64,000 nt of DNA from Jannaschia pagri (GTDB taxonomy: Bacteria > Pseudomonadota > Alphaproteobacteria > Rhodobacterales > Rhodobacteraceae), in the NCBI RefSeq assembly GCF_019655435.1, contig NZ_BPFH01000003.1:310001-374000 (forward strand), read 5' to 3'. Under the pieces are notes generated by a model. It had not been told where the DNA came from and did not search any database. It saw only the letters and a list, made by a program, of their open reading frames with translations. A program made the position numbers and the translations under genes. Below are positions 27,413-59,440 of this stretch, piece after piece. How positions within the stretch are numbered: position 1 is the stretch's first letter; each line of letters opens with the position of its first letter.

Positions 27413-27732
27413 CGGTCCCCCCGAACATATCGGTTGCACGTTATATGGGGCGCGCGACGTCCGTCCAGTGTAGGGGCTGGAAACCTCGTTCCGGTGAGCC
27501 ATATCTCTCTGATACAAAACTGAAATATCCATCGGGCGTCGTAAGGCGGCAGCGCCTGTGCCTAGTGCGTTCGACCAGAAAGGAAAGAAAACGAACATTC
27601 GTTATTGACGATTGGTTCCATATGCTGTTCGTTTGCCCGTGCAAAGGATGCGGGGAGGCACCATTGTTGAGCAACGCAGACCAAACCAGCGCTCACGCCG
27701 ATCCCGGCCCAGATGGATCGGAGGCGCGCTAG
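27413..27732. promoter_or_regulatory. glpR-glpS divergent control region with GlpR-like half-sites
   Basis: 320 bases without a credible gene. AACGAACATTCGTT (27590-27603) contains CGAACAT, the half-site known from E. coli GlpR operators, and forms AACGA/TCGTT. TGTTCG follows at 27626-27631, and GTTCG occurs near 27569. TTGACG (27605-27610) could be a -35 box inside this cluster. GGAGG at 27720-27724 is the glpS ribosome-binding site. A 95-codon frame here looks random. Confidence 0.5.
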
Positions 27733-41742: not shown

Positions 41743-44083
<2,341 letters not shown>

Positions 44084-45031
44084 ATGATTGGGCTGACCAT
44101 TAGACAGATGCGCTACTTCGATGCCTTGGCTCGGCATGGCCATTTCGGCCGTGCCGCCGATGCCTCGGCCATTTCCCAACCGGCGCTGTCCGTTCAAATA
44201 AAGGAGATGGAGGCCCTTCTTGGCCGTCAGTTGGTGGAACGGGCCGCCCGCCAGGTTCGCCTGACGACATTCGGGGAGGAGGTTCTTCTCCGCGTGCGCG
44301 ATATTCTGCGCGCCGTGGATGAGTTGGGCGATCTCGCGCGCGCGGCGCCGTCCGGGTTGTCGGGGCGTTTGCGTCTGGGCGTCATTCCAACGGTCGCCCC
44401 CTATCTGTTGCCCCGGTTGGTGGCGGCGGTGACCCGCTCCTATCCTGCGCTTGACCTCGACGTGCGAGAGACCATCACGCCGCGTCTGCTCGACGAACTG
44501 GCCGAAGGGCGATTGGATACCGCGATCGTTGCCCTGCCGGTGTCGGAGCCAACGCTCTCTGAGGTGCCGCTGTTTGACGAGGCCTTCGTCCTTGTGCGCC
44601 CCGAGGCGGAGGCCGGCGACCCCATGCCCGCCCCTGATCAACTGAGCCGCATGCGTCTACTGCTTCTGGAGGAGGGGCATTGCTTTCGCGACCAGGCATT
44701 GTCGTTTTGCACGATGCCGACCGCGCGCCCGCGTCATGGGCTGGACGGCTCCGCCCTCTCTACTTTGGTGCAGATGGTGGGGGCAGGCCTGGGCGTGACC
44801 CTCATACCCGAGATGGCGGTGCCCGTAGAAACCCGGTCCGCCCCCGTGGCGGTGTCCCATTTCCCAGAGCCACAGCCCCGGCGGACGGTCGGTATGATCT
44901 GGCGTCGCTCCACGCCCCTAGCGGCGCAGCTTGATGGCTTGGCGGGGGTGATCCGCCAAGCCGTCGCACCCGGCGAGGCGCCGTGCCCGCCCACCCCGAG
45001 GACGACGGGCACGTCGGACGAGGGTCCCTAG
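44084..45031 (+). CDS. oxyR: Hydrogen-peroxide sensor OxyR (LysR family)
   Basis: 315 aa. The LysR helix-turn-helix spans about residues 18-37 ([20 protein letters not shown]). The effector domain carries [14 protein letters not shown]: Cys200 and Cys209, matching the redox pair of E. coli OxyR (C199, C208). Peroxide would link them and switch on katG, which is divergent. The Cys pair makes this more than a general LysR call. The stop codon shares the bases CTAG with the stop of the convergent ABC gene. Confidence 0.94.
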
Positions 45032-45804
45032 ACCGTTCCGCCGAGCGATCCCTCTAGCGTCGCCAGTTCCTGGCCACCGGCCATCATGTCCTGCAACTCT
45101 TCGGGCGTGATGTCACCTTTCAGCGCGGTGCCGAGGGTCTGTCCCCGGTTCAGCACTGTGAACCGGTCCCCCACCGCCATGGCGTGGCGCACGTTGTGGG
45201 TGATGAATACGACGGCGATGCCCTTTTTGCGGACCTTGTCGATCGTCGCCAGCACGTTGGACGTCTGTCGCACGCCCAAGGCGCTGGTCGGTTCATCCAG
45301 GATCAGGACTTTCGCCCCGAAGTGTACCGCCCGCGCGATGGCCACGGTCTGACGCTCTCCGCCCGACAGCGTGCCAACGGCCTGGTCGGGCCCCCGCAGG
45401 TTGATGCCCATGGCGCGCATTTCGTCCATGGTCACCCGATTGGCGTAGTCGTGGTCAAAGAACCGCATCCCCGCGATGGTCTTGACCGGCTCATTGCCCA
45501 TGAAGAAGTTCCGGCTGACCGACATCAGCGGGATCATGGCCAGGTCTTGATAGACCGTCGCGATCCCGGCCGCGATGGCGTCCCGTGGGTTGGCGAAGGA
45601 CATGGGTGTCCCCTCGAACAGGATCTCTCCACTGGTGGGTTTGTGGACGCCGGACATCGTCTTGATGAAGGTCGACTTTCCCGCGCCGTTGTCGCCCAGC
45701 AGGCAGTGGCATTCGCCGGGGAAGACATCGACCGACACTCCGTTCAGGGCAATCACCGAGCCGAAGTGCTTGGCGATGTTTGTCATACGAACAATCGGGT
45801 CCAT
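45028..45804 (-). CDS. Inositol/sugar ABC transporter ATPase (single-domain, FrcA/IatA-like)
   Basis: 258-aa ATPase with one nucleotide-binding domain. Walker [11 protein letters not shown]-loop [13 protein letters not shown], signature [14 protein letters not shown], Walker [13 protein letters not shown], switch ITHNVRHA. It belongs to the carbohydrate uptake class 2 type. Start and permease stop share a base (TGATG). The inositol substrate is inferred from the iol genes next door and the shared operator. Confidence 0.9.
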
Positions 45805-46922
45805 CAGCGTTCTCCGGTGATGATGCGGCGGATATAGGTGTTCAGGATCACGGCCAGCAGCAGGATCACCCCCAGGAACACCCGGAACAGAGAGGATTCG
45901 ACGTTGGCAAAGAACAGCCCCTGCTGCACCACGCCAAAGATCAACGCGCCGAGCGCCGCCCCGATGACAGAGCCATAGCCCCCGGTCAGCAGCGCGCCGC
46001 CGATGACCACGGCGATGATGGCCTCGAATTCCTTCAATAGACCCCGGTCCGCGCCCGCCGATCCGAACTCCATCACCTGGCAGACGGCAAAGACCGTCGC
46101 GCAGAAGGCGGTGAACATGAACATTAGGATCTTCACCTGATTGACGGGCACTCCGACGTAGCGTGCCGCCTGGGCGTCACCGCCCGCGGCAAAGATCCAA
46201 TTGCCGAACTTGGTCCGCGTCAGCAGCAGGTGACCGAAGACGATCAGAACAATGGCCCAGACGATCAGCATCGGCACCCCGTCCACGACGGGTTGTCCCG
46301 CACGGTTCCCTCGCTCGAACACGGCGATCAGGCCGATGTCGCCGAACCACTGGAACAAACCGCCCAGGATCTTGGCGCCAAACAGCGGCGCAAGCCAATC
46401 GCCCTCCGCCGCCTCGCGGATGCCGCCAATGATGGTCTTCCGTTCGACCGTCTGGGGGATAAAAATCGTGAAGCCCCGCAGGATGAACAGCGTGGCCAGC
46501 GTCACGATGAAGGACGGCAGCCCGGTCTTCACCACGATGTAGCCATTCAGCCAACCGCAGGCGAGGCAGATGGCGAAGGTGATGAGGATGGCCATCCACA
46601 TGGGAAAGCCCAGCGTCACGCCGAAGATCGCGACCATCATGCCTGCGAACCCGATCATGGAGCCGACGGACAGGTCGAACTCACCCGCGATCATCAGCAA
46701 GCAGGCACCGACGGCGATAATCATGAACTGCGCCGACACGGTCGTCCAATTCATGATGCCCTGGGCGTTGAACATGCCGCTGGATCCAGCCAGCAGGGCA
46801 AAGAAGGTGAAAACGGCGACAGTGCCGATGATCCCGCCCAGCTCTGGCCGGATCAGGGCCTTGCGGATCGGTGATATGTCCTTGACGCGCTCGTCCAGCG
46901 CGGCTTGCGGCGTGTCAGCCAT
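45804..46922 (-). CDS. Inositol/sugar ABC transporter permease
   Basis: 372 aa from ATG 46922, with GGGAGGGACC upstream. About ten hydrophobic helices. RbsC/FrcC-type features: [19 protein letters not shown] near residue 88 and a conserved [20 protein letters not shown] near 310. The upstream frame extension is inside the binding-protein region and is rejected. One permease forms the channel as a homodimer in this class. Confidence 0.9.
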
Positions 46923-46987: not shown

Positions 46988-47932
46988 TTAGCGGTACTCG
47001 CCCGCGAACTCTTCGACCTTGCCAAGCGCGTCCTTGGTCACGAAGCCCGGGCCGGAGTTGATGTTGTTGCCCGGCAGCACGCCGTAGCGGTCGTAGTTCG
47101 CCAGAACGACCACCGGCAGGTAGGCCTGCAAGAAGGGCTGTTGGTCGATGCCCCACTGGATCGTGCCGTCTTTGATCGCCTCGACGATGTTTGTACCCAG
47201 GTCAAAGGTGCCGAAGTAGATGTCCCCGTCCAGGCCCATCTCCTTCACCGCCAGAATGGTCGGATCGGCGGAGGTCGGGCCGAGCGTCAGGATGGCATCC
47301 GTCTCGGGGTTAGCGGTCAGATAGGCGGTGACGCGGTTCTTGATCTCAGCGGGGTCCTGACCCGAGTCGATCATGCTGTCGCCCAAGTCGACGCCCAGAC
47401 CGTCCGCAAAGCCACGGCAGCGCTCGGCAACCACCGTGTTCGAGATGACGTGGTTCACACAGACGAAGCTTTCCACGCCATCGCCTTTGGCCCGCATCCC
47501 AGCGGCAAGGCCTGCGTCATACTCGGGCTGTCCAACGAACATCAGGCCGCCCACCTCGCGCACCTGCTCCGGCGTGCCAGAGTTCATAATGATGACGTCA
47601 ATGCCCTGGTCAACGGCGGCCTTGATGGGCCCGGATAGCACGTCGAAATCGGCCAGCGTCGTGATGATGCCGTCGGGCTGTGCGGCGGCGGCCTGCTCGA
47701 TGATGCGAGCCATATCGGCCAGGTCACCGGTGGGCGGGTTGCGATACTCGACGTTGACGCCCAGCTGATCGCCGGCCAGCGCGATGCCGTTCTTGATGGT
47801 GTTCCACCAGCTGTCAGAATCGGGTGCATGGCTGACCAACACATAGTTCAGATCGGCGTGGCCATCGGCAGCGGCAGCAAAGGGCGCGGCGGCAACGGCA
47901 ACGGCGGCGACCATTGTCTTTACGAACTTCAT
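46988..47932 (-). CDS. Inositol/sugar ABC substrate-binding protein
   Basis: 314-aa periplasmic protein. The signal peptide KFVKTMVAAVAVAAAPFAAA is followed by a Peripla_BP_4 fold: LNYVLVSHAPDSDSWWNTIK, ARIIEQAAAAQPDGIITT and DVIIMNSGTP. AGGAAG lies before ATG 47932. It is the first gene of the transporter operon and lies 85 bases from the palindromic operator. Ligand: myo-inositol is likely by context, but a ribose- or fructose-type ligand cannot be excluded. Confidence 0.88.
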   Translation of the reverse strand: MKFVKTMVAAVAVAAAPFAAAADGHADLNYVLVSHAPDSDSWWNTIKNGIALAGDQLGVNVEYRNPPTGDLADMARIIEQAAAAQPDGIITTLADFDVLSGPIKAAVDQGIDVIIMNSGTPEQVREVGGLMFVGQPEYDAGLAAGMRAKGDGVESFVCVNHVISNTVVAERCRGFADGLGVDLGDSMIDSGQDPAEIKNRVTAYLTANPETDAILTLGPTSADPTILAVKEMGLDGDIYFGTFDLGTNIVEAIKDGTIQWGIDQQPFLQAYLPVVVLANYDRYGVLPGNNINSGPGFVTKDALGKVEEFAGEYR

Positions 47933-48016
47933 TCTCTTCCTCCCGGGTTTTTGTTGGGGCGGCCCGCACAGCGGTCTCCTCCACCCTCGGCGCAAGAAAA
48001 GCACAACTCGATGGTT

Positions 48017-48034
48017 ATTGCAACCGGTTGCAAT
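48017..48034. promoter_or_regulatory. LacI-type operator, copy 1
   Basis: ATTGCAACCGGTTGCAAT is a perfect 18-base palindrome with central CG, the usual LacI-family form. It lies between the transporter operon (start 47932) and the regulator gene (start 48100). The 16-base core is identical to copy 2 at 52430-52445. Confidence 0.85.
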
Positions 48035-48099
48035 TTCTTTGCGCCCCGAACTTTGTGCTGGGGTGAAAACCGGCTAAGAACAGCTGAAAGGAGGCTTGG

Positions 48100-49113
48100 A
48101 TGCCGGTCACCCTAAAAGACGTCGCCCTGCGCGCGGGCGTTTCCCGCTCTGCCGTGTCCCGGACGTTTACCGAGGGCGCTTCGGTCAGTCCGAAGACCCG
48201 CGCCAAGGTCGAGAAGGCCGCCGCAGACCTGGGCTATGCCCCGTCGGCACTGGCCTCCGCGCTCTCCACGGGGCGTACCAAGCTGATCGGGCTTGTTGTG
48301 TCGAACTTCCACAATCCGATCTTTCTCGAAATCTTCGACCGTTTCACCATCGGCCTCCAGGAACGCGGCCTCCGTCCTTTGCTTGTAAACCTTACGGGTG
48401 AGACGGACCCCCAGGCGTCCGTACGTATGCTCCGGCAGTACTCCGTCGACGGCGTTATCATCGCCTCATCCACCCTGCCGCCCAGCTTTGCGGGGGCCTT
48501 CCGCGAGGCGGGCTTGCCGGTCGTCCACAGCTTTGGCCGCTGGACCAGCGCGCCCGAAACTCACGTCGTCGGCATCGACAACCGCGAATGCGGACGGATG
48601 GCGGCGCGCACCCTCGTAGCCCGTGGCTATGAACGAGTCGCTTTCCTCGGCGGCCCCGAGGCGGCGACCTCCACCCAAGACCGCCTCGCTGGGTTTCTGG
48701 AAGGGCTAGAGGCCGCGCCCCTCCGGGGTGTCACAACCAGCTTCGCCGAGGCCTATACCTTCGAGGCAGGCCGCGCGGAAATGCAGCGCCTACTCGCTGC
48801 CGGACCCTTGCCGGATGCTTTCTTCGGGGGCGACGATGTGCTGTCCATCGGCGCCCTCTCCGCGCTCCGCGAGGCTGGGATGGATGTGCCCGGCGACCTT
48901 GGGATCATCGGCCTGAACGATATGCAGATCGCGGGCTGGCAAAACATCGACCTGACCACAATCCGCCAACCGGTCACGGCCATCATCGACGCCTCCATCG
49001 AACTGGCCCTGGCGACCATCGACGACCCCGACCGCCTGCCCGAAGCGCGCCTTTTCCCATGCCGGATTGTCGAGCGCGGCACCCTCCGCCCTTTGGCAAC
49101 TGGGCCAGACTAA
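48100..49113 (+). CDS. LacI-family regulator of the inositol genes
   Basis: 337 aa. The N-terminal helix-turn-helix is VTLKDVALRAGVSRSAVSRT with the hinge helix (APSALASALSTGRTKLIG). The Peripla_BP_3-type sensor has GVDGVIIASSTLPP-like and VVGIDNRECGRMAARTL segments. GGAGG lies upstream. It is divergent from the transporter and surrounded by iol genes. It most likely binds the two 18-base palindromes and represses both units, including itself; the inducer is unknown. Confidence 0.88.
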   Translation: MPVTLKDVALRAGVSRSAVSRTFTEGASVSPKTRAKVEKAAADLGYAPSALASALSTGRTKLIGLVVSNFHNPIFLEIFDRFTIGLQERGLRPLLVNLTGETDPQASVRMLRQYSVDGVIIASSTLPPSFAGAFREAGLPVVHSFGRWTSAPETHVVGIDNRECGRMAARTLVARGYERVAFLGGPEAATSTQDRLAGFLEGLEAAPLRGVTTSFAEAYTFEAGRAEMQRLLAAGPLPDAFFGGDDVLSIGALSALREAGMDVPGDLGIIGLNDMQIAGWQNIDLTTIRQPVTAIIDASIELALATIDDPDRLPEARLFPCRIVERGTLRPLATGPD

Positions 49114-49149
49114 CCAGCGCAACGGGGCAGACCTGGGCCCGCCCCCCTG

Positions 49150-49172
49150 CTTCTTCTCGGCAAAAATACTCA
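49150..49172 (-). repeat. Second copy of the dispersed element, inverted
   Basis: The minus strand reads TGAGTATTTTTGCCGAGAAG then AAG, and it shares GCCGAGAAGAA with 15468-15478 and TGAGTATTTTTG with 17042-17053. It lies between the convergent LacI gene and the Gfo/Idh gene. Confidence 0.55.
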
Positions 49173-49188
49173 GACGCAACGCGACCAA

Positions 49189-50346
49189 TCAGCGAAACAT
49201 CGGAGGCCGGGCATCTACCCAGGCGCCCTCGGCTTTGCCCGACTCCGCCACCGCGAACACAGCCGCCATGGAGCGGAGCCCGTCCTCGGCCCGTGGATAA
49301 AGGTTCGCCGCCGGGTCCATCAAGCGGCTGTCCTTGCGAGCGCGAATGGCTTCTGCGAGATCGGCGTAGATATTGGCAAAGGCCAGGGGCATCCCCTCAG
49401 CATGTCCCACGGTCACGCGGCTGGTGCGGTCGGCCTCCGGCGACAGATTGCCCTCGCCCCGTTCGATCACCTGCAACCGTTCGCCGAGCGGCATGTAGTA
49501 GAGTTGGTTCGGTTGCTCCTGGCTCCACCGCAAACCGCCGGTCTCGCCGAACACCTGAAGGGTCAGACCATGCTGCCGCCCGATGGCAACGGAGGAGGTC
49601 CAGAGCCGCCCCACCGTCCCGCCCGACATGCGGAAGTTCACCATGGCGTCGTCTTCCAAGGTCCGCACGGGGATCGCGCTGACGATGTCGGCGGACAAAC
49701 GCTCGACTTCCTGGCCTGTGACGAAGCTCGCCATATGCATGGCGTGGATCCCGCAATCGGCAAACTGCGCGCTGACCCCCGCCTGTGCCGGGTCATACCG
49801 CCAGCGGACGCGCGGGTTGTCGGCATCGGTGGCATCCGCGTGGTGGCCATGGGCAAACTCCGCTACGACGACGCGCACATCCCCGATGTCGCCCCGCGCC
49901 ACCATCGCCCGCATGTGCCGGACTAGGGAGTAGCCGGTGTAGCCGTAATTCACGGCACAGATCTTGCCGGTCTTATTGGCGATCTCGACGATCTCCTGAC
50001 CCTCTTCGACAGTCATCGTCATGGGCTTTTCGCAAAGGACGTGAAACCCGCCGTCTAGAAAAGCCTTGGTGATCTCATAGTGGGTAGCATTGGGCGTCGC
50101 CACGGTGACCAGGTCCACGCGATCCTCGCGCCCCCGCTCCCCTTCCAGCATCTCCTGCCAGGAGCCATAGGCTCGATCCGCGTCCAGGCCCAGCCGCATG
50201 CCATAGTCGCGCCCTTCCTCGGGGCGGTGGTCCAAAGCACCAGCCACAAAGGCAAACTCGCCATCCAGACCGGCGCCCAGCCGGTGCGCGGGTCCGATCT
50301 GGCTGCCTTCGCCGCCCCCGATCATACCCCAGTTCAGTTTCGCCAT
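49189..50346 (-). CDS. Gfo/Idh/MocA oxidoreductase, second in the iol cluster
   Basis: 385 aa from ATG 50346, with GGGAGGG upstream. Rossmann motif GMIGGGEGSQIGPAHR near residue 7, then CEKPMTMTVEEGQE with the active-site Lys near residue 107, and DCGIHAMHMASF with the catalytic His region. It is NAD(P)-dependent and probably acts on a cyclitol or sugar; a scyllo-inositol or inosose role is likely from context only. Last gene of the minus-strand iolG-iolE unit, 52 bases after iolE. Confidence 0.87.
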   Translation of the reverse strand: MAKLNWGMIGGGEGSQIGPAHRLGAGLDGEFAFVAGALDHRPEEGRDYGMRLGLDADRAYGSWQEMLEGERGREDRVDLVTVATPNATHYEITKAFLDGGFHVLCEKPMTMTVEEGQEIVEIANKTGKICAVNYGYTGYSLVRHMRAMVARGDIGDVRVVVAEFAHGHHADATDADNPRVRWRYDPAQAGVSAQFADCGIHAMHMASFVTGQEVERLSADIVSAIPVRTLEDDAMVNFRMSGGTVGRLWTSSVAIGRQHGLTLQVFGETGGLRWSQEQPNQLYYMPLGERLQVIERGEGNLSPEADRTSRVTVGHAEGMPLAFANIYADLAEAIRARKDSRLMDPAANLYPRAEDGLRSMAAVFAVAESGKAEGAWVDARPPMFR

Positions 50347-50399
50347 ATCAGGCCCTCCCGTAGGGTGGGCGCCAGCCCACCGCCTGTCCAAGTCTCGTG

Positions 50400-51287
50400 T
50401 CAGAACCCGATGGATTGCAGGTATTCGCGGTTCGCCTTCGCGTCCCCCAATGTGTCGTTTTCCTTGGTCGGATCGATGTCCTGCTCGACCGTGCACCAGC
50501 CCTGGAACGCAGCGTCCAGCAAGACCTGCCGGACCGCCGGGAAATCCACATCCCCGTTGCCCAACGTGCAGAAAATGCCGTTCCCGCAGGCCTCGTAGAA
50601 TCCGGTCCGGTTCTCGACCGCGCGGGCCTTCACGGCCGGGTCGATGTCCTTGAAGTGCATGTAGCTGATGCGCCCGACATGCCGTTTCATGAAGGCCACG
50701 GGATCATAGCCCGCATAGGAATGGTGGCCCGTGTCGAAGCAGATCTTGAGGATCTCTTCGGGCACCTCGTCCAGTAGGCGCTCCAACTCCGGCTCGAAGT
50801 CGATGAAGCCGGCCGCATGGGCATGCATCCCCACGGTCAGGCCCGCGTCGGTGCCCATGCGGGCGACCTCGACGATGCGATCCCGGAAGGCGGTCCATTC
50901 GGCGGTATCCATCTGTTCGGCCTCGGCGGCGCGGCCAGCGGTGGGCGCCCGGCGGGGGGAGATGCTGTCGATCAGCACCAGGTGTTTGGCCCCATGGGCG
51001 GTCAGCGCCGCGATGGTCCGGCGCGCGCCGTCCAGCACATCTTCCCATTGGGCCGGGTCGTGGAACGGGCGGAAGACGACTCCCCCGATCAACTCCAGAT
51101 CATGCTCGGCCAGGCCATCGGCTAGGATCGCTGGATCCTCGGGCATATAGCCGACCGGCCCCAACTCGATCCCTTTGTACCCCGCGGCGGCGCATTGGCA
51201 CAGTACCTCTTGCCAGGTGGGGTAGCCTTCGCCCGAGGCGAACTCGATCCCCCAGGAACAGGGGGCGTTTCCGATGCGGATGCTCAT
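50400..51287 (-). CDS. iolE: Inosose dehydratase IolE-type
   Basis: 295-aa TIM-barrel protein of the xylose-isomerase-like family. GNAPCSWGIEFA at the N-terminus is the IolE hallmark. ICFDTGHHSYAGYDP and YMHFKDIDP give metal ligands, and WCTVEQDIDP is the typical end. It removes water from 2-keto-myo-inositol. It lies 12 bases after iolG. A related sugar isomerase is the only real alternative. Confidence 0.9.
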   Translation of the reverse strand: MSIRIGNAPCSWGIEFASGEGYPTWQEVLCQCAAAGYKGIELGPVGYMPEDPAILADGLAEHDLELIGGVVFRPFHDPAQWEDVLDGARRTIAALTAHGAKHLVLIDSISPRRAPTAGRAAEAEQMDTAEWTAFRDRIVEVARMGTDAGLTVGMHAHAAGFIDFEPELERLLDEVPEEILKICFDTGHHSYAGYDPVAFMKRHVGRISYMHFKDIDPAVKARAVENRTGFYEACGNGIFCTLGNGDVDFPAVRQVLLDAAFQGWCTVEQDIDPTKENDTLGDAKANREYLQSIGF

Positions 51288-51299
51288 GGTGTGTGTCCC

Positions 51300-52406
51300 T
51301 TACAGGTCGACCCAGGCGCGGGTCTCGGAAGATGTCCAGGCGGCGTCGACCACGCGGTTGACCTCCATCCCGTCGCGGAAAGTGGGGAAGGCCGATTGGC
51401 CCGCCTCGATGGCGGCCAGGAAGTCCCGCGCCTCGATGATGATCTGGTCCTGATAGCCGGTGCCATGGCCCGGCCCCTGGCAGAAGGCGGCGTAGTTCGG
51501 GTGGGCGGGGCCGGTCAGGACGCGGGTGAACCCGCGCCCGGCCTCTGGCCCTTCGGCTCGGTAGACATGGAGGGAATTCTGATCCTCGCCGTCAAAGCGG
51601 ATCGACCCCCGGGTCCCGTGGATTTCATAGGCGTAGCCCATCTTTTTGCCGGTCGCCGTGCGGCTGGCATAGATGTGGCCCATCACGCCTGAGGCAAAGC
51701 GCACCATCATTTGGGCATGGTCGTCATTGGTCACCTGCACCGGGCCATCGGGGCCGGGCCGTGTCTTATGTACGGTTTCGACGACCGCGTTCAGCGACGT
51801 AATCGGTCCCATCAGGGCCAGCGCACAGTTGATGGGATGGGGTGACAGATCACCCATCGTGCCCGTTTCGCGTCCTTGGCACCGCCAGGTGGCAGGCGCG
51901 TCGGGGTCGGCCAGGAAATCCTCGGTGTGTTCGCCGCGATACCAAGTGATGTCGCCAATCGCGCCCTCGCGGACAAGGCGGATCGCCTCCTGCGTGGCTG
52001 GGGTGCGGACGTAGTTGAAGCCGGTCATGTTGACCGCGCCGGACGCTTCGGCGGCGGCCACCATCGCCTGGCTGTCGGCGACATCCCGACCCAGCGGTTT
52101 CTCACAAAACACGGGCTTGCCCAGGGCAAAGGCCGCCTCGGCGATGGCGCGATGGGTGGACTGGGGCGAAGCGATGATGACCGCATCCACCTTCGGGTCG
52201 GCGACCAGAGCCTGCCAATCGCTCGTGGCCCGCGCAAAGCCAAAGGCGGCGCGGTAGCGGTCCGCGCTTGCCTCGCTGGTGGCGCAGACCATCTCTAGAC
52301 GAGGACGCAGGGTCGTCTCAAAGACGGCGCCCACGGCGGCATAGGCAACCGCGTGGGCCTTGCCCATGTACCCCCCGCCCACGATGCCGATCCCGATGTC
52401 GGTCAT
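51300..52406 (-). CDS. iolG: Gfo/Idh/MocA dehydrogenase, probable inositol 2-dehydrogenase
   Basis: 368 aa from ATG 52406, with GGGAGGAGG upstream. Rossmann motif GIVGGGYMGKAHA at residues 7-19. FCEKPLGRDVADSQAM holds the active-site Lys, and GDLSPHPINCAL the catalytic Asp/His region. It starts 23 bases from operator copy 2. It is assigned as IolG because it leads the unit with iolE and faces iolD; the family is broad, so which of the two Gfo/Idh proteins is the true inositol dehydrogenase is not proven. Confidence 0.8.
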   Translation of the reverse strand: MTDIGIGIVGGGYMGKAHAVAYAAVGAVFETTLRPRLEMVCATSEASADRYRAAFGFARATSDWQALVADPKVDAVIIASPQSTHRAIAEAAFALGKPVFCEKPLGRDVADSQAMVAAAEASGAVNMTGFNYVRTPATQEAIRLVREGAIGDITWYRGEHTEDFLADPDAPATWRCQGRETGTMGDLSPHPINCALALMGPITSLNAVVETVHKTRPGPDGPVQVTNDDHAQMMVRFASGVMGHIYASRTATGKKMGYAYEIHGTRGSIRFDGEDQNSLHVYRAEGPEAGRGFTRVLTGPAHPNYAAFCQGPGHGTGYQDQIIIEARDFLAAIEAGQSAFPTFRDGMEVNRVVDAAWTSSETRAWVDL

Positions 52407-52428
52407 GGCCGCCTCCTCCCAAATAGCG

Positions 52429-52446
52429 TTTGCAACCGGTTGCAAA
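52429..52446. promoter_or_regulatory. LacI-type operator, copy 2
   Basis: TTTGCAACCGGTTGCAAA is a perfect 18-base palindrome. It sits between divergent iolG (start 52406) and iolD (start 52537) and has the same core as copy 1. It overlaps where the iolG transcript would begin, so it should act as a repressor site. Confidence 0.85.
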
Positions 52447-52536
52447 ATTTGTATGCTCGGATTCGGAGATGCGCAATATGCAATCGCTTTGTGGACGGCT
52501 ATTTCCGAAGACGACGTGGGAGGGGGCGGCATCGCC

Positions 52537-54399
52537 ATGACTGAGACGGTTCGACTGACCGTGGCCCAGGCCATCGTGCGCTGGCTGGCGGCGCAATACA
52601 TCGAGATCGACGGGGTCGAGACGCGCATTTGCGGCGGCGGCTTCGGCATCTTCGGCCACGGCAATGTGCCCTGTTTGGGCGAGGCGATCTATCCCATGCG
52701 CGATGTGCTGCCGCTCTACCGTGGTCAGAACGAGCAGGGCATGGGCTTCGCAGCCGCGGGCTATGCCAAGTACCACCTGCGCCGCCGGTTCATGTTCTGC
52801 ACCGCCTCGGCTGGGCCGGGAACGGCGAATTTGTTGACGGCGGCGGCCCTGGCCCATGCCAACCGCCTGCCGATGCTGATGCTCTGCGGCGATACCTTCA
52901 TCACGCGCCTGCCGGATCCTGTGCTGCAACAGTTGGAGCACTTTGGGAACCCGACCCTGGGCGTGAACGACGCCTTCAAGGCTGTGTCGCGGTTCTGGGA
53001 TCGGATCACCCATCCCGCGCAGATCCTGCAGTCGCTGCCCGCCGCCCTGGCCACAATGCTCGACCCCGCCGATTGCGGACCCGCCTTCCTGGGATTGCCC
53101 CAGGACGTCCAGGGTTGGGCCCATGATTATCCGTTCAGCTTCTTCGACAAGCGCGTGCACCGTATCCGCCGCCAAGCGCCGGATATCGCCGAAGTGGCGG
53201 AGGCCGCCGCTCTTCTGACCGCCGCTGCGCGTCCGGTCATCATCGCAGGCGGCGGCGTGCAATACTCCGGCGCTGTGGCCGAGCTGACCGCCTTTGCCGA
53301 GACTCATGACATCCCGGTCGTTGAGACCATCGCGGGCCGCGCCAACCTGACGAACGACCACCCGCTGAACGTCGGTCCCGTCGGCGTGACAGGGTCCGAT
53401 AGCGCCAATGCCATCGCCGAACGCGCCGACCTTGTTTTCGCCGTGGGCACGCGGCTGCAGGATTTCACCACTGGTTCCTGGACGGCCTTCGCCCATGACG
53501 CCAAGTTACTGCACCTGAACGTTTGCCGCCACGACGCGGCCAAGCACCTCGCGACGACTGTCGTGGGGGATGCCAAGCTGGGTCTGACCGCGATTACCGA
53601 AGGGCTAGGCGACCATCGGGCGCCCGCCGCCTGGGCTGAGGACGCTCGGGCAGAGCGGACGAAGTGGGACGCTTATGTCGCCGACAACGTAAAGCCCGGC
53701 AATCGCCCCAACAGCTACGCCCAGGCCATCGGCACGGTAAACGCGCTGTGTGATACCGCCGACCGCGTGGTCGCCGCCGCAGGTGGCCTGCCCGCTGAGG
53801 TCACGGCCAATTGGCGCACGCTCAAACCCGGAACGGTCGACGTGGAATTCGGCTTCTCCTGCATGGGGTATGAGATCGCGGGCGCCTGGGGCGCGCGCAT
53901 CGCGCAGATGGAGCAGGAGGCCGACCAAGACACCATCGTGTTCTGCGGCGACGGCTCCTACCTGCTGATGAACTCGGACGTCTACTCCAGCGTGCTGACC
54001 GAGAAGAAGTTGATCATCCTGGTGCTTGACAACGGTGGCTTCGCGGTCATCAACAAGCTGCAGAACAACACAGGCCAGGCCAGTTTCAACAACCTGATCG
54101 CCGATACGCCCACGGCCACCCATCAGGTCGGCGTCGATTTCGAGGCCCATGCGGTGGCTATGGGTGCCATCGCCGAAACCGTCTCTAACCCGGGGGAACT
54201 GGGCGAGGCCTTCACCCGCGCCAAGGCCGCCGACCGCACCACGGTCCTCGTGATGAAGGTCGACCCCTACGAGGGCTGGACCCAGCAAGGCCACACCTGG
54301 TGGGAGGTGGGGACGGCCCAGGTCTCCGACGACGAAGGCGTCCGCAAGGGCCACGCGGATTGGGAATCCACCCGCCACAAACAGCGGCAGGGCGTGTGA
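52537..54399 (+). CDS. iolD: Trihydroxycyclohexane-1,2-dione hydrolase IolD
   Basis: 620-aa thiamine-diphosphate enzyme that opens the inositol ring. The N-terminal ThDP domain has GFGIFGHGNVPCLG, and the central Rossmann domain follows. The ThDP/Mg motif begins GDGSYLLMNSD at residue 471 and ends with Asn near 499 (LDNGGF). The family length is usual. ATG 52537 has GGAGGGGG upstream; the frame open to 52360 crosses the operator and is rejected. It shares a base with iolC (TGATG). Confidence 0.94.
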   Translation: MTETVRLTVAQAIVRWLAAQYIEIDGVETRICGGGFGIFGHGNVPCLGEAIYPMRDVLPLYRGQNEQGMGFAAAGYAKYHLRRRFMFCTASAGPGTANLLTAAALAHANRLPMLMLCGDTFITRLPDPVLQQLEHFGNPTLGVNDAFKAVSRFWDRITHPAQILQSLPAALATMLDPADCGPAFLGLPQDVQGWAHDYPFSFFDKRVHRIRRQAPDIAEVAEAAALLTAAARPVIIAGGGVQYSGAVAELTAFAETHDIPVVETIAGRANLTNDHPLNVGPVGVTGSDSANAIAERADLVFAVGTRLQDFTTGSWTAFAHDAKLLHLNVCRHDAAKHLATTVVGDAKLGLTAITEGLGDHRAPAAWAEDARAERTKWDAYVADNVKPGNRPNSYAQAIGTVNALCDTADRVVAAAGGLPAEVTANWRTLKPGTVDVEFGFSCMGYEIAGAWGARIAQMEQEADQDTIVFCGDGSYLLMNSDVYSSVLTEKKLIILVLDNGGFAVINKLQNNTGQASFNNLIADTPTATHQVGVDFEAHAVAMGAIAETVSNPGELGEAFTRAKAADRTTVLVMKVDPYEGWTQQGHTWWEVGTAQVSDDEGVRKGHADWESTRHKQRQGV

Positions 54400-55364
54400 T
54401 GGACCTGAACGGCACCAACTTCCTGATCGTGGGCCGCGCGGGGATGGATTTCTACCCCGACCCGCCCGGCACCCGGACCGAGGAGGCAGAGCGCTTCGTT
54501 TCCTGCCTCGGCGGTAGCAGCGCGAACATCGGCGTGGCGCTGGTCAAACAGGGGTGCCAGGCCGCGCTGGTCACGCGGGTCAGCGACGATGCCATCGGGC
54601 GCTTCTGCGTCAATCAGCTCGACCACTACGGCATTGACCGCACCCATGTGACACCCGTGGGGGGCGAGGCGCGCAACTCGCTCGCCGTCGTCGAAAGCCG
54701 GATCGAGGACCACCAATCGGTCATCTACCGCAACGGCGCCGCTGATTTCGAGATGACCACGGCGGATGTGGAGGCCGTGGATTACGCGCCCTATTCCGCC
54801 CTCATCACCACAGGCACTGTCTTTGCCGCCGACCCCAGCCGCACCGCCGCCTTCCGCGCGTTCGAGTTGGCGCAAGCCACCGGGATGCCGCTCATCTTCG
54901 ACATCGACTACCGCCCCTATTCCTGGACTTCGGCGGAGTTCGCCGCCGATGTGCTCAGCCGGGCGGGCGAGATGTGCGACTGTATCATCGGCAACGACGT
55001 GGAGTTCGGCTTCATGGCGGGCGACTACGACCGTGGCCTCGACAAGGCCCGCAGCCTCGCCGCCGAGGGCAAGCTGATCGTCTATAAGATGGGCGAGAAG
55101 GGTGCGATTACCTTCGCAGGGGGCGAGGAAATCCATACCGGCATCTACCGGACGGAGGCGCTCAAACCCACCGGCGCGGGCGACAGCTTCATGGGGGGGT
55201 TCATCGCCGCGCTCGCGGGGGGGCACCCGGTCAAGGACGCCGTCCTGCGCGGGTCCGCTAATGCGGCGATGGTCGTGGCCCGTGTCGGCTGCGCCCCTGC
55301 CATGCCAACCACAGACGAACTGGAGGCCTTCCTGGCCGACCACCCCGGACCGGAGGAGACCTGA
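54399..55364 (+). CDS. iolC: 5-dehydro-2-deoxygluconokinase IolC
   Basis: 321-aa PfkB-family kinase. FVSCLGGSSANIGVALVKQG near residue 40 is the sugar-binding N-terminal signature, and PTGAGDSFMGG near 255 holds the catalytic Asp. It phosphorylates 5-dehydro-2-deoxy-D-gluconate in the inositol pathway. Start overlaps the iolD stop; iolB follows after 1 base. Confidence 0.92.
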   Translation: MDLNGTNFLIVGRAGMDFYPDPPGTRTEEAERFVSCLGGSSANIGVALVKQGCQAALVTRVSDDAIGRFCVNQLDHYGIDRTHVTPVGGEARNSLAVVESRIEDHQSVIYRNGAADFEMTTADVEAVDYAPYSALITTGTVFAADPSRTAAFRAFELAQATGMPLIFDIDYRPYSWTSAEFAADVLSRAGEMCDCIIGNDVEFGFMAGDYDRGLDKARSLAAEGKLIVYKMGEKGAITFAGGEEIHTGIYRTEALKPTGAGDSFMGGFIAALAGGHPVKDAVLRGSANAAMVVARVGCAPAMPTTDELEAFLADHPGPEET

Positions 55365-55365
55365 G

Positions 55366-56220
55366 ATGCACATCCCGCCCCATGACAACCACAACAAGCC
55401 CATCGTGGACGTGGATAACCCCACGGTTCCGTTGAACTACTTCAACATCGTCAAGCTGACCGAAGGTCAGTCGTTTGACTATCTGGTGCCTGGATATGAG
55501 ACCTGCATCGTGCCAGCCACGGGAACCGTGACCGTGCATGTGGAGGGCGAGGTCTATCGCGACATCGGCGTGCGCGAAATCGACGTGTTCGATGGTGATC
55601 CCGAAGGCGTCTATGTGCCCACCGGCACCAAGGCCCATTTCACCTGTCGCTCCGCCGAGGCGGAGGTGTTCATTGCGGGTGCGAAATACGACCAGGTCCT
55701 GAAGCCCTTCGAAGTGCGCACCAAGGACTTGGACAAGGTCCAATACGGATCAGATGAGACCAAGACCCACCGCCGCATCGCCCATATCCTGGGTGCGGGC
55801 TGCCACGACCGGGTCGGGCGGTTACTGGTATCGGAGTTGTTCACCGTCGGTGCAGGCGGCTGGTCCGGCTTTCCCAGCCACAAGCACGACACGGACCGGA
55901 AGGTCGGGGACGAGATGATCGAGACCCGCCACGATGAGACTTACAATTTCCGGTTCAAGCCCAATTATGGCTCGGGCGTGCAGATGTTGCAGCGCGAAGA
56001 TAACAAGCCGGGCGATGCCTATCACATCATGGATGGCTCCACGATCTGCCTCGACAAGGGTTATCACCCCTGTGCCGCGCTTCCGGGGTATGAGATGTAC
56101 TACTTCACCATCCTGGGCGGGCTGAGCCAACGCAGCCTGAAGCAGTACTTCCAGCCGACCCACGAAGAGCAGCTGCATACGATCCCGGGCATCATGGACA
56201 TGGTCGCCAAGTTCAAGTGA
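55366..56220 (+). CDS. iolB: 5-deoxy-glucuronate isomerase IolB
   Basis: 284-aa two-cupin enzyme. Metal-ligand region GGWSGFPSHKHDTDR (HxH type) and GYHPCAALPGYEMYYFTILGG late in the protein, given here in part, are family marks. It converts 5-deoxy-glucuronate to 5-dehydro-2-deoxygluconate, the IolC substrate. ATG 55366 lies just after the iolC stop, with GGAGGAG in the end of iolC. The longer frame is inside iolC and is rejected. Confidence 0.93.
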   Translation: MHIPPHDNHNKPIVDVDNPTVPLNYFNIVKLTEGQSFDYLVPGYETCIVPATGTVTVHVEGEVYRDIGVREIDVFDGDPEGVYVPTGTKAHFTCRSAEAEVFIAGAKYDQVLKPFEVRTKDLDKVQYGSDETKTHRRIAHILGAGCHDRVGRLLVSELFTVGAGGWSGFPSHKHDTDRKVGDEMIETRHDETYNFRFKPNYGSGVQMLQREDNKPGDAYHIMDGSTICLDKGYHPCAALPGYEMYYFTILGGLSQRSLKQYFQPTHEEQLHTIPGIMDMVAKFK

Positions 56221-56326
56221 TCGGCACGGCGGGGTGACCCCCGCCCTTCGCCCATGCCGCGCAATGCGGCGCCCTCGTCCTCGGGTGCGACCCGGGGACC
56301 TCTCCCCGATAGCACGGACGTGTCCC

Positions 56327-57154
56327 ATGACCCTCGCTACCCTTCGCGATGTTTTGCAACCGGCCCTGTCCGAGGGGCGCGCCATTGCGGGTTTCGTTTG
56401 CCTGGGGTGGGAGGATGCCCGCGCCTATGCTCGGGCGGCGCAGACGGTCGGCGTGCCGGTCATCCTTCAGGCTGGGCCGGGGTGCCGGGAACACACGCCG
56501 CTGCCGGTGCTGGGCGCCATGTTTCGGATCCTGGCGGCGGATGTGGATGTGCCGGTCGTGGCCCATCTCGACCACGGCTATCAGGCTGCGGAGTGTCGCG
56601 AGGCCATCGATGCGGGCTTTACCAGCGTGATGTTCGACGGCTCCAAACTGCCTCTGGAGGAGAACATCGCCCAGACCCGCGCCATTGCCGAGATGGCCCA
56701 TGCCGCGGGTGTTTCCTGTGAGGGCGAAATCGGGTTCGTCGGCTATGCCGCTGGCGCCGAAAGTCGTGGGACGGACCCGGAGGAGGCCGCGCGCTTCGCC
56801 AGCGAGACGGGTGTGGACGCCATGGCGATCAGCGTTGGGAACGTGCACCTGCAAACCGATGCCGGGGACGGTTTGGATGAGGCCAAGATTGCCGCGATCC
56901 AGGCCAAGACCTCGGTCCCGCTGGTGATCCATGGCGGGTCCGGTGTGCCCCATGCCCAGAGGGGGCGCTTGGCCCGCGAGACCTCCATCTGCAAGTTCAA
57001 TATCGGGACCGAGGTGCGCCAGGTCTTCGGCGCCTCCCTCCGTCAGGTTCTGGCCGATGACCCGGACCAATTTGATCGCGTTCAGATCTTGCGCCGGGTC
57101 GAGGCACCCATCCAAGCGGCGGCGGAGGCGGTGCTTCGGTCTTTGGTGTCCTGA
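56327..57154 (+). CDS. Class II fructose-bisphosphate aldolase family protein (IolJ-like)
   Basis: 275 aa from ATG 56327. Class II aldolase marks: VAHLDHGYQ (zinc ligands), SVMFDGSKLPLEENI, and VIHGGSGVPH with FNIGTEVRQ for phosphate binding. It probably splits 2-deoxy-5-keto-gluconate-6-phosphate into DHAP and malonate semialdehyde, the job of IolJ; a general FBP or tagatose aldolase remains possible. It lies 106 bases after iolB, same strand. No obvious ribosome-binding site. Confidence 0.82.
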   Translation: MTLATLRDVLQPALSEGRAIAGFVCLGWEDARAYARAAQTVGVPVILQAGPGCREHTPLPVLGAMFRILAADVDVPVVAHLDHGYQAAECREAIDAGFTSVMFDGSKLPLEENIAQTRAIAEMAHAAGVSCEGEIGFVGYAAGAESRGTDPEEAARFASETGVDAMAISVGNVHLQTDAGDGLDEAKIAAIQAKTSVPLVIHGGSGVPHAQRGRLARETSICKFNIGTEVRQVFGASLRQVLADDPDQFDRVQILRRVEAPIQAAAEAVLRSLVS

Positions 57155-57192: not shown

Positions 57193-57254
57193 GAAACATT
57201 TGATCGCTCACCGCCTTCATGGTACGCGGTCTTATGGGCAGCGGAGGATGCCAC

Positions 57255-58460
57255 GTGGCGGAGGCGTTTATTTGCGACGGCGTACGAACGCCGATCGGTC
57301 GCTACGGCGGGGCCTTGGCTGCGATCCGGGCGGACGACCTGGCCGCCCATCCCATCCGCGCCTTGCTCGCGCGGAACCCTGATCTAGACCCAGGCTCAGT
57401 GGACGAGGTTCTGTTGGGGGCCGCGAACCAAGCCGGTGAAGACAATCGCAACGTGGCCCGTATGGCCGCACTGCTGGCAGGCCTGCCCGAAACGGTGCCC
57501 GGCGTGACGCTCAATAGGCTTTGCGCCAGCGGTTTGGATGCCGTCGGGTTCGCGGCACGCGGGATCAAGGCCGGGGACTATGACCTCTGCATTGCGGGCG
57601 GGTCCGAGAGCATGACTCGGGCGCCGATCGTGACCGCTAAGGCCGATGCGGCGTTTTCGCGACATGTCGAAAGCTACGACACGACCATCGGTTGGCGGTT
57701 CCCGAATGCGGCCCTGCACAGTGCCTATGGGACCCATTCCATGCCTGAAACGGCAGACAATGTCGCCGCCGACCATGGGATCGCGCGCGCCGACCAAGAC
57801 GCTTTTGCCGCCCGGTCCCAGGCCCGTTGGGCCGCCGCGCATGAGGCTGGCTTTTTTGACGGGGAAATCGCGCCGGTCGAGATCCCGCAGCGGAAAGGCG
57901 ATCCGGTTGTCGTGGCGACCGATGAACATCCGCGCCCGGGCACGGATGCGGCTAAGCTGTCCAAGTTGCGCGGGGTTAATGGGCCGGACCTATCGGTGAC
58001 AGCGGGCAATGCCTCGGGCGTCAATGACGGAGCGGCGGCGTTGCTCATCGCCTCGTCCGAGGCTCTCCGCGCGCACTCCCTGACGCCTATGGCGCGGGTG
58101 GTGACTATGGCCTCGGCCGGAGTGGCGCCACGGGTCATGGGGGTTGGACCTGTCCCGGCGGTAAGAAAGGCTCTGACACGGGCGAATTTGACGATCTCCG
58201 ACATGGATGTGATCGAGTTGAACGAGGCCTTTGCGGCTCAAGCCCTGGCCGTGTTGCGACAGCTCGGCCTGCCCGGCGATGCGCCCCATGTGAACCCTAA
58301 CGGCGGTGCCATCGCGCTGGGCCATCCCCTGGGCATGTCCGGCGCGCGCCTTGCCCTGACGGCGGCGCGGCAGTTGCGCGCCACCGGGGGGCGTTACGCG
58401 CTTGTGACCCTTTGTGTGGGCGTCGGGCAAGGCGCCGCCATGATCTTGGAAAGGACCTGA
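57255..58460 (+). CDS. paaJ: 3-oxoadipyl-CoA / acetyl-CoA acyltransferase PaaJ-type thiolase
   Basis: 401-aa thiolase. Nucleophile Cys90 ([10 protein letters not shown]), His357 (GHPLG) and Cys387 (LCVGVGQG) make the full catalytic set. [18 protein letters not shown] is the PaaJ/PcaF-like start. GTG 57255 has GGAGG at 57243-57247, so the earlier ATG is not used. It is first in the paa operon, 2 bases before paaA. In phenylacetate breakdown it would release acetyl-CoA from 3-oxoadipyl-CoA; PcaF function is the alternative. Confidence 0.88.
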
Positions 58461-58462
58461 CG

Positions 58463-59440
58463 ATGTATGCGCAGATGATTAAGTCCGAAGCGAGCCAGGA
58501 CGATCCGGAGAAGCTCGCCGCCTTTCAGGCGCGCATCGACCGGGGGGAAAAGATCGAGCCGAAGGATTGGATGCCCGAGGGCTATCGCAAGACCCTGATC
58601 CGCCAAATTGGCCAGCATGCCCATTCGGAGATCGTGGGCCAGTTGCCCGAAGGCAATTGGGTGACCCGCGCGCCGACGCTGGAACGGAAGGCCATCCTGC
58701 TGGCCAAGGTTCAGGACGAGGCAGGGCATGGCCTGTATCTCTATTGTGCCGCCGAGACGCTGGGCATCAGCCGGGACGAGATGACGGAGATGCTGCTGGA
58801 TGGGCGCATGAAGTACTCGTCGATCTTCAATTATCCGACGCTGACTTGGGCGGACATGGGGGCCGTTGGTTGGTTGGTGGATGGGGCGGCGATTATGAAC
58901 CAGGTGCCGCTCCAACGGACGTCCTACGGGCCCTATGCCCGCGCAATGGTGCGGATCTGCAAGGAGGAGAGCTTCCACCAGCGGCAGGGCTTCGACGTGA
59001 TGATGAAGATGTGCCAAGGGTCCGAGGCGCAGAAGCGCATGGCCCAGGATGCGCTCAACCGTTTTTGGTTCCCATCGCTTATGATGTTTGGTCCGTCGGA
59101 CAAAGACAGCAAACACTCCGCCCAATCGATGAAGTGGCGGATCAAGATGAACACCAACGACGAGTTGCGGCAGAAGTTCGTGGATCAAACCGTTCCGCAG
59201 GCGGAATACCTGGGCCTCACGGTGCCTGATCCGGATCTGACCTGGAACGAAGAGACGGGGCACTACGACTTCACGGAACCCGATTGGGCGGAGTTCATGG
59301 AGGTTCTGGCGGGCAACGGCCCCTGCAACCGGGACCGGATGGAGGCGCGGAACCGTGCCTGGGACGAGGGGGCCTGGGTCCGCGAGGGGCTGATGGCCCA
59401 TGCCACCAAACAGCGGGCCGTTTCGGTGGCGGCGGAATGA
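58463..59440 (+). CDS. paaA: Phenylacetyl-CoA 1,2-epoxidase subunit PaaA
   Basis: 325-aa catalytic di-iron subunit. Metal ligands are seen in [11 protein letters not shown] (E-x2-H) and [10 protein letters not shown] (E-x3-H); ferritin-like helices. It adds oxygen to the ring of phenylacetyl-CoA. ATG 58463 follows the paaJ stop by 2 bases. It overlaps the following DUF3291 gene by ATGA. Length and motifs are typical. Confidence 0.95.

Follow-up and report, generated by a model that had tools for sequence, protein, structure and literature searches.

The 64,000-nt stretch of Jannaschia pagri DNA analysed here (the window; contig NZ_BPFH01000003.1, positions 310,001 to 374,000 of the forward strand) carries a cluster of inositol genes in which one 16-bp palindrome, TTGCAACCGGTTGCAA, occurs exactly in two divergent control regions, at 48018-48033 (site 1) and 52430-52445 (site 2). 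Judged from sequence comparisons, this palindrome is very probably the operator recognised by the LacI-family protein whose gene lies next to site 1 (48100-49113, plus strand), an IolR-type repressor that would place inositol uptake and breakdown under shared control. The initial annotation of the window had already proposed a single LacI operator word joining the two functions. That proposal is strongly supported by the comparisons below, whereas its count of two sites and its naming of the dehydrogenase gene at 51300-52406 as iolG were not borne out.

Site 1 is located between the transporter operon (minus strand) and the LacI gene (plus strand), 66 bp from the LacI start codon and 85 bp from the substrate-binding-protein gene. 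Site 2 is located between the dehydrogenase-iolE operon (minus strand) and the iolD operon (plus strand), 91 bp from iolD and 23 bp from the dehydrogenase gene. Each site, to which no strand is assigned, is thus upstream of both of its neighbours. Both 16-mers sit in perfect 18-bp palindromes (ATTGCAACCGGTTGCAAT and TTTGCAACCGGTTGCAAA), with outer pairs A/T at site 1 and T/A at site 2, in agreement with the coordinates and outer bases first given. The word is an even palindrome with a central CG and stands beside a LacI gene. When up to three mismatches were allowed, the window contained two matches (0.18 expected), and none of 100 shuffles gave two or more. In the whole genome (3,914,951 bases), the exact 16-mer was found three times and copies with one or two mismatches were not found, while about 0.0005 exact copies would be expected by chance, given the size of the genome and the G+C content of the window. 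The looser pattern TTGC-N8-GCAA was found 68 times in this genome (reversed control: 52), and three of the 68 had the exact centre of the 16-mer. A chance origin was ruled out by the copy counts set against expectation and by the shuffles. A terminator was also ruled out, because the palindrome has no loop, the flanking genes are divergent and no terminator-like match was found at the sites (the single one close to site 1 is within the LacI gene, and there is none near site 2). All three genomic copies precede inositol genes, so the many copies at unrelated places that the initial annotation had named as evidence against its idea are not seen in the genome of the window.

The protein encoded at 48100-49113 matches PF00356 (53 bits; cut-off 27) and PF13377 (105 bits; cut-off 26.5), the DNA-binding and sugar-binding domains of the LacI family. 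Fourteen LacI-type matches were found in the genome, and the 16-mer is upstream of this one and of none of the other 13. Loci of LacI orthologues were sought by protein rather than by motif. Fifty-two were found, and 51 were kept after L090 (25% identical, Cohnella) was dropped; the 51 include L086, a truncated LacI gene without upstream DNA. The nearest named orthologues, in Jannaschia pohangensis and J. marina, are 82% identical. The best match upstream of LacI was exact in 33 of the 51 loci, had one mismatch in seven, two in three and more in eight, giving a site with up to two mismatches in 43 of 51. The site-2 region was testable in 43 loci, five of which (L055, L067, L083, L084 and L085) lacked an iolD match and were located from the dehydrogenase side; here the word was exact in 40 and had one mismatch in three. 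In total, 75 exact copies were found in the 916,804 bases of the 51 loci, and all of them precede inositol genes: site 2 accounts for 40 and site 1 for 33, and the other two stand before canonical iolG (L042:7886) and before iolB and the aldolase gene (L078:11063). The orthologous loci share kinship and are not independent trials; nonetheless, most of their flanking intergenic DNA is not conserved.

The regulator and the word were also compared across 60 genomes, including that of the window (G000), with a threshold of E <= 1e-70 for a LacI orthologue. Two or more of these genomes also occur in the set of orthologous loci (L039 and L040 correspond to G005 and G019). The exact 16-mer was found in 13 of the 60 genomes and the orthologue in 14, and all 13 are among the 14. 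G026, the sole carrier of the orthologue among the 47 genomes without the exact 16-mer, has a one-mismatch copy at each of the two places. Each of the eleven carriers other than G000, G004 and G026 has the two iol sites with up to two mismatches, and these sites account for all 17 exact copies in those genomes. G004 likewise has both sites. In nine genomes of the genus that lack the orthologue (G007-G011, G013-G015 and G017), there was no copy or a single copy, always with two mismatches.

The third exact copy in the genome of the window is on another contig (C4, L019:8179-8194), 11 bp upstream of the ATG of a gene that matches TIGR04380, the equivalog model of inositol 2-dehydrogenase (iolG), with 414 bits (cut-off 355). 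The regulon is therefore not confined to the two sites and four transcripts first proposed. No second match to the protein of this unlinked iolG was found in the genome at E <= 1e-60. The gene is preceded by a second sugar ATP-binding cassette (ABC) transporter, with a xylF-like binding protein, and a kelch-repeat gene (L019:3841-8150). The protein encoded at 51300-52406 (minus strand), a member of the Gfo/Idh/MocA family, reached 130 bits with TIGR04380, below the same cut-off, and its best NCBIfam model was levoglucosan dehydrogenase (302 bits; below the cut-off of 650). Its closest solved relative, the best PDB match, is a scyllo-inositol dehydrogenase with L-glucose dehydrogenase activity. 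The operator copy before the unlinked canonical gene therefore corrects which dehydrogenase deserves the name IolG. The third site adjoins the ribosome-binding region, so its promoter would be placed upstream of the site. The initial annotation had also advised looking for the motif before iolA; around the best-scoring of nine MMSDH-type (iolA-type) matches, the only one of the nine examined, the closest match in 4.4 kb had five mismatches, and iolA as a member of the regulon is not supported.

Elsewhere, canonical iolG is commonly part of the cluster. It directly follows the aldolase gene in 26 of the 37 orthologous loci with an aldolase gene, is elsewhere in the locus in two (L040 and L042) and is absent from the DNA covered in nine. 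The aldolase-iolG order was also found in G002, G003, G005, G006, G012 and G020. In Thalassovita autumnalis (L042), an exact operator stands some 140 bp upstream of iolG, and an iolB-like stretch and the LacI gene come after that gene. In G001, G004 and G019, a transporter-iolG row, with iolG last, lies beyond LacI, in G001 and G019 at about 2.2 kb from the site. On an 89-kb contig (G016:C5; L030 and L136), LacI and site 1 are at the start and a transporter-iolG row is near the end; if this contig is circular, the spacing would again be about 2.2 kb and the contig would be a circular replicon carrying the iol cluster.

Promoter elements were sought by conservation around the two sites. In 44 aligned site-2 regions, a block with the consensus TATCCT (TATGCT in the window, 52452-52457, plus strand) is found 16 bp downstream of the left operator arm TTGCAA, and its T, A, T, C and final T (positions +22 to +25 and +27) are kept in 91-98% of the sequences. 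A similar TA...T block was found in most of 12 other site-2 regions from the genome set. The block is a predicted -10 hexamer of the iolD promoter, and the left arm TTGCAA probably doubles as its -35 element. On the transporter side of site 1, two positions, each 82% conserved, fit a -10 element spaced 17 bp from the nearer arm, which suggests, less strongly than at site 2, that an operator arm might act as a -35 element there too. Additionally, a GCAA at 52473-52476 (plus strand; 82-100% per base in the 44 sequences) starts about three helical turns (31 bp) beyond the GCAA in the second arm of the operator and is possibly a phased half-site.

The sites, their placement, their conservation and their co-occurrence with the regulator come from comparison; from these we infer binding, repression, the inducer, the operon limits and the -35/-10 assignment. 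Without an inducer, which might be inositol or an early breakdown product, the LacI protein would occupy its operator. The targets repressed in this way would be the transporter operon and the regulator gene itself (site 1), the dehydrogenase-iolE-dehydrogenase and iolD-iolC-iolB-aldolase operons (site 2) and canonical iolG (the unlinked third site). Since an arm of site 2 probably doubles as the -35 element of iolD, repressor and RNA polymerase would compete there, and possibly also at site 1. On binding of the inducer, all targets would be released together. The adjacent LacI protein might instead act at these sites as an activator or dual regulator. The position of the third operator, next to the ribosome-binding region rather than over a recognisable promoter, would fit such a role. 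However, the overlap of the site-2 operator with the predicted -35 fits competition with polymerase, and most LacI-family proteins bind DNA without a ligand, according to the parts of a LacI survey used here (PMC4052901). We therefore consider activation unlikely and plain repression the better description.

Several observations weigh against a single repressor with a dedicated operator. A consensus scan found no sigma-70 promoter at site 1 or site 2, so the -35/-10 assignment rests on conservation. In eight of the 51 loci (including L086), no site with up to two mismatches lies directly upstream of LacI, three of them (L042, L072 and L076) having a site further upstream. Another of the eight, L081, had neither a site nor iol genes in 21 kb. 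In G018, which carries the regulator together with the two iol sites, the closest iolG match (48% identity) is on another contig without a site of up to four mismatches in 16 kb. Six of the eleven other carriers have 12 more copies with one or two mismatches away from iol; as a control for this search, in which G004 was treated separately, the reversed pattern gave seven matches in its 21 genomes. In G004, 14 of the 18 copies with up to two mismatches stand outside the iol locus, and of the four within it one is inside the second dehydrogenase gene; this iteration limits the specificity of the word in that species.

Cross-binding by related proteins must also be considered. Two of the 14 LacI-type proteins, L157 and L159, share the SAVSR helix with the adjacent one, and the sites could be operators of such a paralogue, or of a global regulator like GapR, with the adjacent LacI gene being just one of the targets. 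GapR of the Rhodobacteraceae is likewise a LacI-family protein with a palindromic site; in the sections of the survey consulted (PMC4052901), it is a global regulator of central carbohydrate metabolism with a 20-bp site before 5-13 operons, whereas the regulon described here is local, with three sites at inositol genes. The paralogues have no 16-mer upstream, and the exact 16-mer is confined to those of the 60 genomes with the orthologue of the adjacent protein. Control by a paralogue or by GapR was accordingly judged quite unlikely, and the adjacent protein is retained as the regulator.

The congener G004 was analysed separately. Its genome contains eight exact copies of the 16-mer and 18 within two mismatches, and here the objection raised in the initial annotation, many copies at unrelated places, does apply. 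Thirteen places with the 12-base core away from iol were examined, comprising 12 of the 14 distant copies and one weaker copy (examples of distant copies are L020:7802, L021:6899, L023:7329, L024:7251, L025:6733, L026:6647 and L027:6612). Pfam placed seven of the 13 within domains of unrelated genes (aminotransferase, inositol monophosphatase family, MutS domain II, Mur ligase, HMGL-like, OppC-type permease and pseudouridine synthase), with all three codon phases represented. Four share an open frame with a domain but lie outside its best stretch, and two had no match, not every frame having been tested. Open frames alone are weak proof of coding, because the intergenic iol site also sits in a long open frame. 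MutS was compared in 14 genomes, and the G004 stretch with the word showed no conservation in the other 13, all different species of the genus. The flanks of seven exact copies appeared unrelated by eye. The pattern TTGC-N8-GCAA was found 20 times in G004 (reversed control: 38), and eight of the 20 have the exact centre of the 16-mer, compared with the three of 68 in the genome of the window.

The absence of visible shared flanks around the 14 distant copies and the enrichment of this centre in G004 speak for a palindrome that is non-regulatory and belongs to a dispersed, iterated family. For the window, this explanation is highly improbable: exact copies stand at inositol genes in its genome and in 11 other carriers, and site 2 is in register with the conserved -10-like block. 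Iterated palindromes such as HIP1 of cyanobacteria are comparable in kind to the G004 copies. Tentatively, and with less than even confidence, one word may lead two lives in the genus, as a near-invariant IolR operator in most carriers and as an iterated palindrome inside unrelated genes in at least one species, G004. Should IolR bind the iterated copies, these would serve as decoys; should it not, a second DNA-binding or DNA-modifying activity would read the operator word.

The gene cluster around the two sites in the window is kept in relatives. To the left of site 1, on the minus strand, are genes encoding an ABC transporter substrate-binding protein resembling rhizopine-type binding proteins (46988-47932; NF052284, 279 bits, cut-off 420), a permease (45804-46922; below the cut-off of every family model) and an ATP-binding protein (45028-45804; below the cut-offs of the family models shown). 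The minus-strand row from site 2 comprises the dehydrogenase gene described above, iolE, encoding inosose dehydratase (50400-51287; TIGR04379, 176 bits, cut-off 290), and a second Gfo/Idh/MocA oxidoreductase gene (49189-50346), which has the same place in most relatives. On the plus strand, iolD (52537-54399; TIGR04377, 787 bits, cut-off 715), iolC (54399-55364; TIGR04382, 308 bits, cut-off 300) and iolB (55366-56220; TIGR04378, 138 bits, cut-off 205) are followed by a class II aldolase gene, probably iolJ (about 56327-57154; PF01116), which also follows iolB in most relatives. Among the inositol targets, model cut-offs are thus exceeded by iolD, iolC and the unlinked iolG but not by iolE, iolB or the binding protein. 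The second Gfo/Idh/MocA gene and the IolJ-like aldolase gene probably belong to the divergent operons as well.

Between iolB and the aldolase gene, a segment of about 106 bp (56221-56326) appears, by eye, to hold a G+C-rich inverted repeat; the two genes abut in relatives such as G001, G003 and G020. Downstream of the aldolase gene, where other genomes have iolG, the region 57219-59440 presumably encodes, as read by eye, a thiolase and the phenylacetyl-CoA epoxidase subunit PaaA. On the other side of the cluster, 41743-45031 holds what we take, also by eye, to be a catalase-peroxidase gene (KatG) beside a divergent LysR-family regulator gene, perhaps OxyR. Phaeobacter inhibens is a related bacterium. 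Its IolJ-like aldolase PGA1_c07220, identified for myo-inositol from mutant fitness data (PMC9007349, in the part used here), resembles the present gene, a probable iolJ, as an IolJ-type aldolase for myo-inositol use; this comparison is by description and concerns enzymes, not regulation.

Seven orthologous groups of inositol regulators are named IolR in Table 1 of the LacI survey, and the portions of that source used here also describe most LacI-family sites as even palindromes with a central CG and 72% of the regulators as autoregulated (PMC4052901). The regulon described here resembles those LacI-type IolR regulons in its LacI-family regulator, its even central-CG palindrome, the site near the regulator gene and its inositol targets. 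In Caulobacter and rhizobia, by the excerpts considered (PMC2597717), an inositol ABC transporter and iol genes are likewise under one control, with unlinked loci included; their IolR, however, is an RpiR-family protein with the motif GGAA-N6-TTCC, whereas here a LacI-family protein is encoded beside the cluster. No RpiR/SIS-domain regulator stands beside the iol genes, the neighbour being of the LacI family (no search was made for RpiR proteins in the rest of the genome). The motif GGAA-N6-TTCC has one match in the window, at 27479 (1.11 expected), far from the cluster; it is absent from the iol region, and an RpiR-type control motif at the iol genes was rejected. Text searches of the literature for the 16-mer and its 14-mer and 12-mer cores returned one trypanosome paper, unrelated by title. 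Searches for an inositol regulator of the LacI type in this group of bacteria gave the general LacI survey as the sole direct lead, which is no proof that the regulon is unpublished.

The regulon is therefore a well-supported new case of a known kind, the LacI-type IolR switch. It would be a compact one, with one regulator and three operators serving the inositol pathway, in a group whose well-studied alphaproteobacterial inositol regulator belongs to another protein family. Its near-invariant operator would lend itself directly to the construction of an inositol-responsive expression system.

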